Shown here: positions 34,177 through 42,393 of the stretch, in pieces
Position numbering within the stretch: the first letter of the stretch is position 1
Layout of the letters: each line of letters begins with the position of its first letter
Origin: Propionispira arboris
Lineage (GTDB): Bacteria > Bacillota > Negativicutes > Selenomonadales > Selenomonadaceae
Direction: 5' to 3'
Length of the DNA: 64,000 nt
Assembly: GCF_900109225.1 (NCBI RefSeq)
Contig: NZ_FNZK01000010.1
Coordinates: forward strand, 62,001-126,000
The notes under the pieces: model-generated
What the model was told of the DNA's origin: nothing
Seen by the model: only the letters and a program-made list of their open reading frames with translations
Databases searched by the model: none
Translations under genes and position numbers: made by a program

Positions 34177-35331
34177 ATGAAAACTTTTAAATTGACAAAA
34201 GAGGAAACACAGGATTTAGCAGAGAGGTTTCAGACGCCGCTAGTGGCGATCTCTTTGGAACAAGTAGAGTATAATTACCAATTTTTACGAACGCACATGC
34301 CAAGGCTTAGGGTGTTCTATGCAATGAAATCAAATCCGGCAGCGCCGATTGTTGGCAAGGTGGCGGAACTGGGAGCAAGCTTTGATGTTGCCTCGGATGG
34401 TGAAATGCGCCAACTGACAGCAATGGGGGTCGCAGCGGATCGCATGATTTATGCAAATCCTTTTAAAACGCCACAGGGAATGAAGCTAGCGGCAAAAATT
34501 GGTGTGAATAAATTTACGTTTGACAGTGAGAGTGAAATATACAAAATGGCGAAGTATGTACCGGGTGGTACGGTTTTACTTCGTTTAAGGGTAGACAATC
34601 CGAAAGCGCTTATTGATTTGAATAAAAAATTTGGAGCAGCACAAGAGGATGCACTGCATCTTTTGCGTATTGCCAGACAGCAAGGGCTTGATGTTGCTGG
34701 ATTATGTTTTCATGTTGGCAGCCAGTCGCTTTCAATGGATGCACATAAAGAAGCATTTCGAATTTGTCGTGAGGTTTTTGATCAGGCCAAGGCAGATGGT
34801 TTTGCGCTTCATATTCTTGATATTGGGGGCGGACTGCCAGTTCCGGCACCGGATATGAATTTTGATTTGCTGGAAATGGCACAGGAAATCAATGAACAGA
34901 TTGAAACATTGTTTCCGGATACAGAGATTTGGGCAGAGCCGGGACGTTATATTTGTGGAACGGCGATGAACCTGATAACGAGCGTTATGGGATTGCAAGA
35001 TCGTAATCACCAGCCGTGGTATTTTCTTGATGAAGGTCTTTATGGTACCTTTTCCGGGGTTATCTTTGATCACTGGGAGTATGAGCTGGAAACATTCAAG
35101 CAGGGTGAACTAACACCCGCGACTTTTGCCGGGCCAAGTTGTGATTCAATTGATATTTTATATCGAGACCGTATGAGTGTGCCTCTGGCCATTGGTGATC
35201 TTATTTTAGTGCCAAACTGTGGTGCATATACGTCGGCTTCAGCAACGGAATTCAATGGGTTTGCTTTAGCAAAGATGGTTGTTTGGGAAGAAGTAAAACA
35301 TATAGAGAAAGCCGTTGAAGCTGTAGGCTAG
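34177..35331 (+). CDS. ldc: Lysine/ornithine decarboxylase, Selenomonas type (PLP fold III)
   Basis: 384 residues. FYAMKSNP carries the PLP lysine (Lys51), with FHVGSQSLS, DIGGGLPVP, WAEPGRYICGTAMN and the substrate-side GPSCDSIDILYRD. As I recall the S. ruminantium lysine/ornithine decarboxylase, the match extends through almost every conserved block, including WYFLDEGLYGTFSG. That enzyme makes cadaverine and putrescine, and cadaverine is covalently attached to the peptidoglycan of these bacteria. Diaminopimelate decarboxylase is the alternative but fits less well. A stem CGTTGC/GCAACG lies in its leader (34121-34148). Confidence 0.88.
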   Translation: MKTFKLTKEETQDLAERFQTPLVAISLEQVEYNYQFLRTHMPRLRVFYAMKSNPAAPIVGKVAELGASFDVASDGEMRQLTAMGVAADRMIYANPFKTPQGMKLAAKIGVNKFTFDSESEIYKMAKYVPGGTVLLRLRVDNPKALIDLNKKFGAAQEDALHLLRIARQQGLDVAGLCFHVGSQSLSMDAHKEAFRICREVFDQAKADGFALHILDIGGGLPVPAPDMNFDLLEMAQEINEQIETLFPDTEIWAEPGRYICGTAMNLITSVMGLQDRNHQPWYFLDEGLYGTFSGVIFDHWEYELETFKQGELTPATFAGPSCDSIDILYRDRMSVPLAIGDLILVPNCGAYTSASATEFNGFALAKMVVWEEVKHIEKAVEAVG

Positions 35332-35353
35332 ACTTTGAGAAAAAGGTGATCTT

Positions 35354-35539
35354 ATTAAAAATTTAGGCAGTATATCAAATGCGATTGTTGTGTTAATTGT
35401 TTTAGCGGCAATTTATGTAAAAATGAACGATGCTGGTGCGGATGCAATTTTTCGAGGTTCAGATATCTACATTGTGGTAGGAGCCGTACTGGCACTTGTA
35501 GTACTTAAGATTTTTTACAGTCATAGAAATAAAAAATAG
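35354..35539 (+). CDS. Small two-helix membrane protein, apparent ATT start
   Basis: A 61-codon frame 22 bp after the decarboxylase gene, too short for most gene callers. It begins at ATT 35354, with AAAGGTGAT ending 3 nt before it. The upstream in-frame stop is TGA 35336, and no ATG, GTG or TTG lies between that stop and the RBS. Two hydrophobic segments (about residues 8-22, AIVVLIVLAAIYV; and 38-55, IYIVVGAVLALVVLKIFY) are joined by a polar loop, and the end is basic (HRNKK). ATT starts are rare but known (infC). A start at the internal ATG (codon 24) would remove the first helix. It precedes the terminator that closes the ldc transcript. Function unknown. Confidence 0.65.
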   Translation: MKNLGSISNAIVVLIVLAAIYVKMNDAGADAIFRGSDIYIVVGAVLALVVLKIFYSHRNKK

Positions 35540-35575
35540 GCTAAAACAAAATAATAGAGAAAATTAAAAAAAGTC

Positions 35576-35617
35576 AAGTGGATAACTTTGCATTATTACA
35601 AAGTTATCCACTTTTTT
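35576..35617 (+). terminator. Terminator of the ldc transcript, built from two DnaA-box-like sequences
   Basis: AAGTGGATAACTTTG (35576-35590) and CAAAGTTATCCACTT (35599-35613) are a perfect 15-bp stem with an 8-nt loop, followed by T6. Each arm contains a near-consensus DnaA box. Confidence 0.8.
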
Positions 35618-35734
35618 ATCCACAAATAACCTCTAACTGTGGATAACTATGTGAGAATAGTAAAAAAACTGCAATAAAACAGATATATAAGCTGTGGATA
35701 ATGAGTTATCCACAGCTTACATATCTGTTGATAA
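35577..35734. other. Cluster of seven DnaA-box sequences in nested inverted pairs
   Basis: Against the consensus TTATCCACA, four exact boxes lie at 35616-35624 (+), 35638-35646 (-), 35693-35701 (-) and 35706-35714 (+). Three one-mismatch boxes lie at 35577-35585 (-), 35604-35612 (+) and 35726-35734 (-). The pair at 35693/35706 sits in a 24-bp inverted repeat (35678-35701 with 35706-35729, one mismatch, 4-nt centre). AT-rich sequence follows (35735-35760). No gene is seen in 35540-35866. This could be oriC, a DnaA-titration or reactivation site, or a DnaA-controlled promoter. Confidence 0.85.
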
Positions 35735-35866
35735 CTTTAGAGATATATTTTATATTTGCGTTGTCCGTAAATCAAGGCTAAAATTACAAATACATAAGTG
35801 CAGTAAATTACAAGAATTTGTTGTAAAATAAGACATATAAAATAAAATTTTAGGTATGGTGAATAT

Positions 35867-37045
35867 ATGGATGAAAAAATTGAAGAATTTAGCGAAAAAA
35901 CACTGAATTGTATTTTACGTGAAACTGTAGATGCAATGGAAAACAGTAAAACACAAATTTTTGACATTTATGAAGGGGCTCGTAGTGAAGTCGAACATAT
36001 TCAAATGGATATCAAAGAAGTGAAAGAAAAAGTATATGAAGTAATTGAAAAGGTAGATCGACTGGAAGTTGAGGAACAAGCCGCCAAACAAAAACTGGTT
36101 CGAGTGAGCAGGAATTTTAAATCTTATACGGAGTCTGATATTCAAAATTGTTATGAAGCTGTCAAAGATGTCCAGATTCGGCTGGCTATTGCCCGCGAAC
36201 AAGAAGAGCATTTACGGCATCGCCGCGATACGCTGGAAATTCGGCTGCGGAAACTTGCAGCAACTGTGGAAAAGTCAAAACATCTGGTTGTTAAAATTGG
36301 GGTCGTTTTAGGCTATTTGAGTTCACAGATCAATGCGGTTGTGACACAGATTGAAATGCTGAATCAGGATAAAATGCTGGGGGTACAAGTAATCAAAGCC
36401 CAGGAAACTGAACGGCTGCGTGTTTCCCGTGAGATTCACGATGGACCAGCTCAAACGATTGCAAATTTGATTTATCAATCCAGTATTTGTGAACGGATGA
36501 TTGATATTGATTCCGATGAAGCAAAAGCCGGGCTTCAGGAAATTCGTCGTCAAATTCGTCATTGTTTAGGTGAAGTTCGCCGTATCATCTTTGATTTAAG
36601 GCCTATGTCCTTGGATGATTTGGGGCTTGTAGCGACGGTGGATCAATTTTTAGGGAAACTAAAAACACGTGGCAATTTGTCAGTGGCTTTTAATGTTGAA
36701 GGCATAGAAGTTAAAATTAATCAATATGTTGAAGTAAGCATTTTCCGGATTATTCAAGAAGCGTTAAATAATATTTATCGGCATGCGGAGTCTCCTTCAG
36801 CAGAACTTCGCTTGATTTACGGAAAAGAGTATATGTCAGTTGTCATTAAAGATATTGGCAAAGGATTTTTAGTTGATCAGCCTCATGATAACGAGGAACA
36901 AAATGGTTGTTTTGGTCTTATGGGAATGAAAGAGCGGGCTGCTATAATTCACGGGCAGCTTTTGATCGATTCAAAGCCAGGCTGTGGTACAGAAATCCGT
37001 TTGCTAGTACCGTTAAGCGAAGTTTGTGAATCGGATATTAAATAG
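35867..37045 (+). CDS. DegS-like cytoplasmic sensor histidine kinase (orphan)
   Basis: 392 residues without membrane segments. The N-terminal ~180 residues are a long coiled-coil sensor region of DegS type. The HisKA_3 motif SREIHDGPAQTIANL contains the phospho-acceptor His191, and the ATPase core has the N-box EALNNIYRHA and GCFGLMGMKERA. In B. subtilis DegS pairs with the response regulator DegU encoded beside it. Here no response-regulator gene is adjacent: the next gene is a decarboxylase. It starts just after the DnaA-box cluster. Confidence 0.9.
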   Translation: MDEKIEEFSEKTLNCILRETVDAMENSKTQIFDIYEGARSEVEHIQMDIKEVKEKVYEVIEKVDRLEVEEQAAKQKLVRVSRNFKSYTESDIQNCYEAVKDVQIRLAIAREQEEHLRHRRDTLEIRLRKLAATVEKSKHLVVKIGVVLGYLSSQINAVVTQIEMLNQDKMLGVQVIKAQETERLRVSREIHDGPAQTIANLIYQSSICERMIDIDSDEAKAGLQEIRRQIRHCLGEVRRIIFDLRPMSLDDLGLVATVDQFLGKLKTRGNLSVAFNVEGIEVKINQYVEVSIFRIIQEALNNIYRHAESPSAELRLIYGKEYMSVVIKDIGKGFLVDQPHDNEEQNGCFGLMGMKERAAIIHGQLLIDSKPGCGTEIRLLVPLSEVCESDIK

Positions 37046-40844: not shown

Positions 40845-41663
40845 GTGCAGATAGTAGTGGGAGTACGCTTCAAAGAAGCGGGAAAAATATATTATTTTGA
40901 TCCAGGACAACTTGTGCTTGTACAAGATGATGATGTTATCGTTGAAACAGCACGTGGCATAGAATATGGAATGGTGGTTATTGGTCCTCGTGAAGTAAAG
41001 GATGAAGACATTGTTTTACCTTTAAAAACTGTGCAGCGTAAAGCTACACCGAGTGACCGTACGAAAGTTAAAGAAAATGAAGTTAAAGAAAAAGAAGCTT
41101 TTACGATTTGTGAAAAGAAAATTGTAACGCATGCTTTACCAATGAAACTGATTGATGTTGAGTATACGTTTGATGTGAATAAAATTATTTTTTATTTTAC
41201 AGCGGATGGCCGTATTGATTTTAGAGAATTAGTAAAAGATTTAGCAGCTGTTTTTCGTACACGTATTGAACTTCGGCAAATTGGTGTACGTGATGAAGCC
41301 AAACTTATGGGCGGGATTGGTTGCTGCGGCCGATCATTATGCTGTTCAACCTTTCTTGGCGATTTTGAACCAGTTTCCATTCGTATGGCAAAAGAGCAGA
41401 ATCTGTCACTGAATCCAACGAAAATTTCGGGAATTTGCGGCAGATTAATGTGCTGCTTGAAATATGAAAATGACTGTTATTGCAATAAATGTCCAAGTAA
41501 GAAAATTACGGCACCAAAGCCGGGGACTCGTGTTATTACGGTTGAGGGTGAAGGAAAAGTAATTTCGATTCACAATCAGCGTAAAACGGCAACCATTTTA
41601 CTCGATGACAGTAAAACAGTAGTAGCTTCATGGGAGGATGTAATTTCAAAAGATGAAGCTTGA
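40845..41663 (+). CDS. ricT: RicT (YaaT), PSP1-domain protein
   Basis: 272 residues. A PSP1 domain with the cysteine clusters CCGRSLCC and GICGRLMCCLKYE; the RicA-F-T complex binds Fe-S clusters and, in B. subtilis, is needed with RNase Y for mRNA processing and for sporulation and competence. RicA and RicF genes are not adjacent here. Start GTG 40845 behind GAGGAGG. Overlaps trmN6 by 11 bp. Confidence 0.93.
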   Translation: MQIVVGVRFKEAGKIYYFDPGQLVLVQDDDVIVETARGIEYGMVVIGPREVKDEDIVLPLKTVQRKATPSDRTKVKENEVKEKEAFTICEKKIVTHALPMKLIDVEYTFDVNKIIFYFTADGRIDFRELVKDLAAVFRTRIELRQIGVRDEAKLMGGIGCCGRSLCCSTFLGDFEPVSIRMAKEQNLSLNPTKISGICGRLMCCLKYENDCYCNKCPSKKITAPKPGTRVITVEGEGKVISIHNQRKTATILLDDSKTVVASWEDVISKDEA

Positions 41664-42393
41664 TCTCAAAGATAATGAACGACTAGATGACTTAGTAATC
41701 CAAGGATTGAAAATCATTCAAAATGAACGACAGTTTTGTTTTTCATTGGATGCAGTCTTATTGGCTCATTTTGCTAAAGTAAAAAAAAGAGCCCATGTTC
41801 TTGACCTTGGAACGGGAACTGGGGTTATAGCTTTATTGCTTTCGACACGGCAGACAGAAAAAATCGATGCCTTGGAGTTAAATCCGGTAATGGCAGATTT
41901 AGCAGCGCGTAATGTAGAACTCAATGCTTTACAAGAAAAAATTGTAGTTCATGAAGGCGATTTGTGTAATATTCGGGAGATTTTTCCAGCGGAGTTTGTC
42001 GATCTGGTTGTTTCAAATCCTCCGTATCGTCCCTTGGAACAGGGCGATTTGAACCTTTTAAGTGATGTAGCAAAAGCACGGCACGAAGTGACAGCAACGC
42101 TGCAGGATGTTGTCAAAGCGGCGCGGTATTGTCTGAAATTTCGCGGCCGTTTTGCAATGGTACATTTGCCAGAACGAATCGGTGAAATTATTATAGCGAT
42201 GCATGAGGCGGGTATTGAGCCAAAACGTTTACGTTTTGTTCACCCGAGACTTGGCAAAGCACCGAATATGGTTCTGGTTGAAGGTATAGCTGGAGCAAAA
42301 CCAGGCGGTATGCTTGTGGAACCACCATTGATTGTTTATGGAAGTGATGGCAGTTACGCAAGGGAAATCGTTGAGTATTATCAGGAAAGATAA
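41653..42393 (+). CDS. trmN6: tRNA1(Val) (adenine(37)-N6)-methyltransferase, YabB family
   Basis: 246 residues. SAM-binding LDLGTGTGVIALLLS and the catalytic N6-adenine motif SNPPYRP are clear. The family methylates A37 of a valine tRNA. In B. subtilis yabB is likewise between ricT and rsmI. Start ATG 41653 lies inside the end of ricT, indicating translational coupling. Confidence 0.9.
   Translation: MKLDLKDNERLDDLVIQGLKIIQNERQFCFSLDAVLLAHFAKVKKRAHVLDLGTGTGVIALLLSTRQTEKIDALELNPVMADLAARNVELNALQEKIVVHEGDLCNIREIFPAEFVDLVVSNPPYRPLEQGDLNLLSDVAKARHEVTATLQDVVKAARYCLKFRGRFAMVHLPERIGEIIIAMHEAGIEPKRLRFVHPRLGKAPNMVLVEGIAGAKPGGMLVEPPLIVYGSDGSYAREIVEYYQER

Follow-up and report, generated by a model that had tools for sequence, protein, structure and literature searches.

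A conserved DnaA-box cluster between ldc and a sensor kinase gene of Propionispira arboris, a predicted DnaA-sequestering site outside oriC

The locus and its DnaA boxes

The window, that is, the whole 64,000-nucleotide stretch of Propionispira arboris DNA analyzed here, is part of contig C14 of the draft genome. The array of DnaA boxes and its two neighbors are laid out as follows.

34177..35331, + strand: ldc-like decarboxylase gene (Orn_Arg_deC, family match), left neighbor
35577..35585, − strand: DnaA box TTATCCACT, one mismatch; left arm of a hairpin, possibly also a terminator of ldc
35604..35612, + strand: DnaA box TTATCCACT, one mismatch, first member of a tandem pair; columns with 92% mean identity in seven orthologues
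35616..35624, + strand: DnaA box, exact, second member of the tandem pair, 12 bp on; 83% identity in seven orthologues
35638..35646, − strand: DnaA box, exact, inverted to the tandem pair, 22 bp on, with a 13-nt gap; 100% identity
35678..35729, no strand: 24-bp inverted repeat around the palindromic pair, one mismatch, 4-nt centre; at least 20 pairs counted by program, the rest read by eye
35693..35701, − strand: DnaA box, exact, left half of the palindromic pair, 55 bp on; 78% identity, missing from G024
35706..35714, + strand: DnaA box, exact, right half of the palindromic pair, after the 4-nt centre; 68% identity
35726..35734, − strand: DnaA box TTATCAACA, one mismatch, the least conserved; 55% identity in seven orthologues
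35735..35866, no strand: AT-rich stretch with candidate kinase promoters; 77% AT compared with 60% in the whole window
35867..37045, + strand: DegS-like sensor kinase gene (family match), right neighbor

A box search allowing at most one mismatch detected seven TTATCCACA-like DnaA boxes, four exact and three with one mismatch, spanning 158 bp. These are the same seven boxes described in the original prediction, which had been made from the letters of this stretch; its inverted repeat and the AT-rich DNA after the boxes were likewise present, and its placement of the cluster between ldc and a DegS-like kinase agreed with the coordinates and families of the flanking genes. At this mismatch level the window contained 28 boxes in total versus 20.6 expected, and 6 of 100 shuffles reached 28. 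Hence, the window total is ordinary and the clustering is not: the Poisson chance of at least seven boxes per 150 bp is about 1e-13 for a given place. The first 120 bp of the AT-rich stretch ranked in the top 2% of the 120-bp windows of the whole stretch. A promoter pattern scan gave matches at 35728-35756 and 35821-35848, and between 35300 and 35900 it returned seven promoter-like matches compared with 3.4 (sd 2.2) in shuffles.

The kinase gene is followed by genes for an Orn/Lys/Arg decarboxylase, thymidylate kinase (tmk), a DUF327 protein (yaaR), holB and a PSP1 (yaaT-like) protein, with tmk and holB on the strand of the kinase. At 40845-42393 the PSP1 gene is directly followed by a yabB-like methyltransferase gene with no yabA between them; in B. 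subtilis, the order is yaaT-like gene, yabA, yabB. Between ldc and the box cluster, a 61-codon frame for a small membrane-like protein (35354-35539, + strand) opens with ATT at 35354 after a GGTGA-like ribosome site. As read from the sequence, there is no ATG, GTG or TTG between the in-frame stop at 35336 and this ATT, and the first in-frame GTG is the 13th codon; the frame may thus use a rare start codon. By reading, a similar frame lies upstream of the kinase in G017.

Conservation and spacing of the boxes

The kinase upstream regions of 46 genomes, including that of P. arboris itself, were examined for the same boxes (30 loci and 16 stretches). Three or more boxes were located just before the kinase in eight of the 46 genomes, namely P. 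arboris (G000), Propionispira raffinosivorans (G001), Megamonas sp. UBA1799 (G024), G026, G037, G040, G048 and G052. The kinase in the window is 100% identical to that of P. raffinosivorans DSM 20765. One of the other genomes, G053, carries the module 1.4 kb upstream of the kinase, about 150 bp behind ldc, and G133, outside the set of 46, carries it between ldc and the kinase. The layout, whole or partial, was present at the ldc/kinase locus in six family groups (f1, f2, f5, f13, f17 and f18). The conservation check suggested along with the original prediction therefore gave a divided answer: the boxes recur in P. raffinosivorans as well as in five other family groups, but 38 of the 46 kinase upstream regions are without three or more of them.

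The conserved core begins with a tandem of boxes at 12-bp spacing and an inverted box 22 bp later; about 55 bp further comes the palindromic pair, its halves separated by 4 nt, and about 20 bp after that a last inverted box. It was complete or nearly so in G001, G040, G037 and G052, with one tandem box of G037 below the one-mismatch level, while G026 was without the last box and G024 and G048 retained the first part only. The palindromic pair, with a centre of 3–4 nt, was present in G001, G040, G037, G052 and G026 and absent from G024 and G048. The two f18 genomes displayed a plus box followed after 34 bp (12 + 22) by an inverted box and after a further 54 bp by another. In an alignment of seven orthologues, which covers five of the six family groups (G001 was dropped and f18 has no row), box columns were 80% identical and other columns 37%; the last two boxes were the least conserved (68% and 55%). 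The equivalent of the box at 35726-35734 reads TGTTGATAA in G040 and G037 and TGTGAATAA in G052, and no box with up to one mismatch was present in G040, G037 or G048 at the position equivalent to 35577-35585. Outside the box pair, the inverted repeat was common only to P. raffinosivorans among the eight clusters compared. Judged by these alignments, the site at the ldc/kinase locus is old.

The cluster and its two flanking genes do not always occur together. The ldc and kinase genes are adjacent without the cluster in five genomes (G014, G016, G033, G035 and G051). In G026 the module precedes the kinase and no ldc was found within the preceding 4 kb, and in G053 it follows ldc at a distance from the kinase; hence, the cluster seems tied to neither gene. 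A dispersed mobile repeat was also considered and rejected: matches in the P. arboris genome outside the window are at most 73 bp long and track the boxes, and orthologous clusters stay beside ldc or the kinase.

The leftmost boxes raise the question of transcription termination. The box pair at 35576-35613 and the T run that follows it form a terminator-like hairpin with a fold z of -7.7, and six terminator-like matches occur within 35300-35900 compared with 0.2 expected. That the array consists only of terminators or hairpins whose stems happen to resemble DnaA boxes is nevertheless extremely improbable, as the box letters are conserved while the remaining stem letters change, a stem needs no tandem repeat of boxes, and G037 has a separate, box-free hairpin before its cluster (G040 seems to as well, by reading). 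We rejected pure terminator hairpins as the main explanation on these grounds. Since the left pair folds as a terminator and G037 has a separate hairpin there, a double function of the left pair is possible.

That the cluster is conserved next to the same genes would agree with gene regulation as well. In the strongest rival to a role in replication timing, DnaA on the array would control the kinase operon (kinase, Orn/Lys/Arg decarboxylase, tmk, yaaR and holB) as it does at sda, and would link the state of replication to a sensor kinase as well as to nucleotide and replication genes. Its rank follows from the presence of tmk and holB in the operon and from the activation of sda by DnaA in B. 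subtilis (PMC4447404). The cluster lies upstream of the kinase with tmk and holB following on the same strand, promoter-like sites come after the boxes, the G026 cluster still stands before the kinase though no ldc was found, and the cluster is kept beside these genes in six family groups. However, the last core box lies at varying distances from the kinase start codon among orthologues, the kinase of G053 begins 1.4 kb beyond its cluster, the kinase is kept without three or more boxes before it in 38 of 46 genomes, and unrelated genes adjoin the sister clusters described below. The case for a strict kinase operator is weakened by G053 and by this variable distance, and we regard control of the operon as possible but rather unlikely.

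The inverted-pair pattern TTATCCACA-N(0-30)-TGTGGATAA was present in 44 of 60 genomes, a set that includes P. arboris, compared with 2 of 60 for the reversed control. In the 75 forward pairs that were listed, a lower bound on their number, gaps were 2–7, 13–17 or 24–28 nt and never 8–12 or 18–23 nt, and the best period was 11–12 bp (R 0.71; the highest of 2000 uniform draws was 0.44). Kinship and nested tandem boxes inflate this periodicity statistic, and pairs nested in one tandem were counted apart, which swells the 25–27-nt class; the empty gap classes remain. An overlapping set of 48 pairs from closed genomes gave gaps of 2–7, 13–17 and 24–29 nt. With gap classes this narrow, about 11–12 bp apart, the boxes appear to share one side of the helix, and such phasing suggests an ordered DnaA complex, not scattered sites.

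Related clusters and their position relative to dnaA

The genome of P. arboris contains 81 exact boxes versus 33 for the reversed pattern. Some of these are grouped at other loci.

C17:117621-117778: sister cluster of seven boxes; neighbors an ArsR regulator and threonine ammonia-lyase
C27:69866-70181: sister cluster of 13 boxes; neighbors an amino-acid permease and a TetR regulator
C21:17288-17423: sister cluster of five boxes, about 28 kb from dnaA; neighbors MgtC and a TetR regulator
C18:115006: inverted box pair; neighbors ribosomal protein L13 and a CoA-enzyme activase

The tandem-plus-inverted layout is shared by the C17 and C27 clusters and not by the C21 cluster, whose neighboring TetR regulator resembles RefZ below the cut-off of that model. 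A syntenic counterpart of the C27 cluster was found in G052, -304 kb from dnaA, with 57% identity for the TetR gene and 83% for the next gene; the permease was not found there, and around the C27-like clusters of G040 and G037 none of the genes flanking C27 turned up. The C27 cluster, with two repeated modules over about 315 bp, is the largest seen in the P. arboris genome.

To look beyond these loci, we used R1, a sequence-only model built from eight orthologous clusters (those of G000 and G001 are nearly identical), so that its eight best matches are true by construction. At E ≤ 0.01, R1 had matches in 237 of 380 class genomes, including the eight from which it was built; some matches will be oriC boxes, and a class-wide match therefore need not mean a cluster outside oriC. 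Under stricter filters, 143 of the 380 genomes had no match at this threshold. In 22 further loci (L082-L103), clusters lay by or near a polyphosphate kinase gene at ten loci from groups f6, f15, f20, f24 and f30, beside MgtC in genus g6 (three) and beside an amino-acid permease in genus g22 (four). The polyphosphate kinase loci are L082, L083, L088, L091, L092, L095, L096, L098, L102 and L103.

Placement was determined in 26 closed or nearly closed genomes, 24 of which had R1 matches (G009 and G020 had none, and G020 also had no box pair). The 80 rows were reduced to 53 places, 27 being dropped by hand for overlap with a kept row or membership in the same cluster. Fifteen of the 53 places are within 6 kb of dnaA and represent oriC boxes; 38 are elsewhere. 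Clusters away from dnaA were within 15% of the genome from dnaA in 28 of 29 cases at E ≤ 0.001 and in 33 of 38 at E ≤ 0.01. When a single value was taken per genus or family (n = 13), distances ranged from 1% to 29% of half the genome, with a KS p of 2e-7; KS p-values other than that of this one-per-group test treat related genomes as independent. Distances from dnaA are approximate, because most genome lengths were taken to the nearest 0.1 Mb and any genome in two to six contigs was handled as a single circle. A model-free search with TTATCCACA-N(0-30)-TGTGGATAA gave pairs in 18 of the 26 genomes and 34 places away from dnaA, of which 29 were within 15% of dnaA versus 10.2 expected; the remaining five were at 15.4, 17.3, 21.2, 28.5 and 33.5% of the genome. 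Clusters occupy both chromosome arms.

Genus g9 (G159, G168, G170 and G009) displayed inverted pairs with long gaps, at 13–17% of the genome from dnaA, and with a CCCTAGGGA- or CCCTGGGGA-like core between the boxes. This core is possibly the site for a second protein.

The box density and the adjoining AT-rich DNA could also point to a replication origin, present or displaced, and a displaced origin was one of the two alternatives put forward in the original prediction. The only DnaA gene above the family cut-off is on another of the 40 contigs (C21, 45849-47276), in line with the earlier remark that no dnaA lies nearby, so that the cluster on C14 adjoins neither dnaA nor dnaN. Exact and near boxes flank dnaA on both sides, and the gene beyond it on the far side is one we recognize by eye as rpmH. 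Across the window, each 2-kb step between the left edge and 58 kb had a positive GC skew, without a change of sign at the cluster. In the closed genome G052, where the orthologous cluster is at 210 kb, the sampled skew was negative up to the end of dnaA and positive after it, measured 0.19 and 0.24 on either side of the cluster, and was negative from 1.4 Mb on; its sign changes at dnaA and again somewhere from the 1.26-Mb to the 1.40-Mb sample. Relative to dnaA, the orthologous cluster sits at about +211 kb in G052; in G040 the distance is about +340 kb. With the proposed checks of skew and dnaA location both carried out, oriC is excluded, and we give the origin reading almost no weight.

What lies at 35577-35734 is thus a short non-coding site with several boxes away from dnaA and oriC, and in relatives such sites are near the origin, as the G052 and G040 distances and the 28 of 29 strong clusters indicate. 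In the P. arboris draft, only the C21 cluster can be placed near dnaA directly; since this genome is a draft, an origin-proximal placement of the window cluster would follow from its relatives.

Predicted role and comparison with known systems

We favor, with moderate confidence, the reading that the array is a conserved, predicted DnaA-sequestering and initiation-timing site outside oriC, like the B. subtilis clusters, and one of a small set located as a rule within about 15% of the genome from oriC, on either arm. Several DnaA molecules would bind the array, probably on one helix face via the 12-bp tandem and 22-bp inverted spacing. Binding would be cooperative, and unfilled sites would hold DnaA back. 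As the site would be copied soon after initiation, its doubling would lower free DnaA and help to prevent a second start. The YabA search described below, with no hit above the cut-off in 60 genomes, also counts in favor of this reading. DnaA binding, cooperativity, titration, the effect on timing and the distance from oriC in P. arboris itself are all points that we infer. The original prediction had offered a DnaA-titration or control element as its second alternative; conserved boxes and spacing, the sister clusters and the near-dnaA placement speak for it, and the 38 of 46 genomes without three or more boxes before the kinase speak against it.

DnaA-box clusters outside oriC are known in several bacteria. 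In Streptomyces, too, a box cluster outside oriC affects initiation. The B. subtilis genome, which provides the closest comparison, is about 4.2 Mb long. Like the window site, the B. subtilis clusters consist of several boxes outside oriC, six of them strong; by the coordinates in Table 1 of PMC4447404 and this genome length, five of the six are within about 15% of the genome from oriC. Their flanking genes (ywcI, gcp, trmE, ywlC, sda and yydA; PMC4447404) differ from those of the window, and hence the B. subtilis clusters and the window site are not the same loci. Removal of the six clusters leads to early initiation (PMC5295017), although that paper nevertheless denies them a significant role. 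In the relatives of the window site, the tandem-plus-inverted layout recurs across family groups.

The E. coli sites datA, DARS1 and DARS2 are also non-coding box groups outside oriC, and they act on DnaA; this action is on its nucleotide state and involves IHF or Fis (PMC5295017). A datA- or DARS-like site that alters the nucleotide state of DnaA, beyond mere binding, would agree with the box geometry and inverted pairs, which suggest an ordered complex, and with the near-dnaA placement in relatives. We consider it improbable, as PMC5295017 also states that for B. subtilis no factor is known to regulate the conversion between DnaA-ATP and DnaA-ADP. In E. coli and Salmonella, DnaA boxes are enriched near oriC, which has been read as titration; that enrichment is a density trend over hundreds of boxes (PMC12371093), whereas the class of the window shows discrete modules at recurrent loci.

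Returning to sequestration, according to a 2022 model (PMC9640692) titration by itself does not suffice at high growth rates unless its sites are close to the origin, an arrangement that the same paper says does not match the E. coli data. With discrete modules near the origin on both arms, the near-origin titration idea could be put to the test through removal of a small number of defined sites. As the phased geometry is conserved across family groups at several loci, it is moreover a natural data set on DnaA assembly outside oriC. We found no paper on such clusters in Negativicutes in the literature searched, whose coverage leaves out most subscription journals. As far as that literature shows, three features are new: the class-wide spread, the stereotyped, phased arrangement of boxes, and the recurrence of syntenic sites on both arms.

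A broader proposal concerns YabA, which B. subtilis possesses. It is a tentative and rather doubtful one, namely that this class, for which no YabA above the cut-off was found, sets the timing of replication mainly through DnaA titration on a few geometrically defined and helically phased modules near oriC on both arms. If true, the class would offer a natural example of the near-origin titration design, which modeling singled out against premature re-initiation at high growth rates. Our search found no YabA over the cut-off in the 60 genomes, that of P. arboris among them, and detected it in B. subtilis and L. lactis among 14 controls. Two matches, in G048 and G053, fell below the cut-off.
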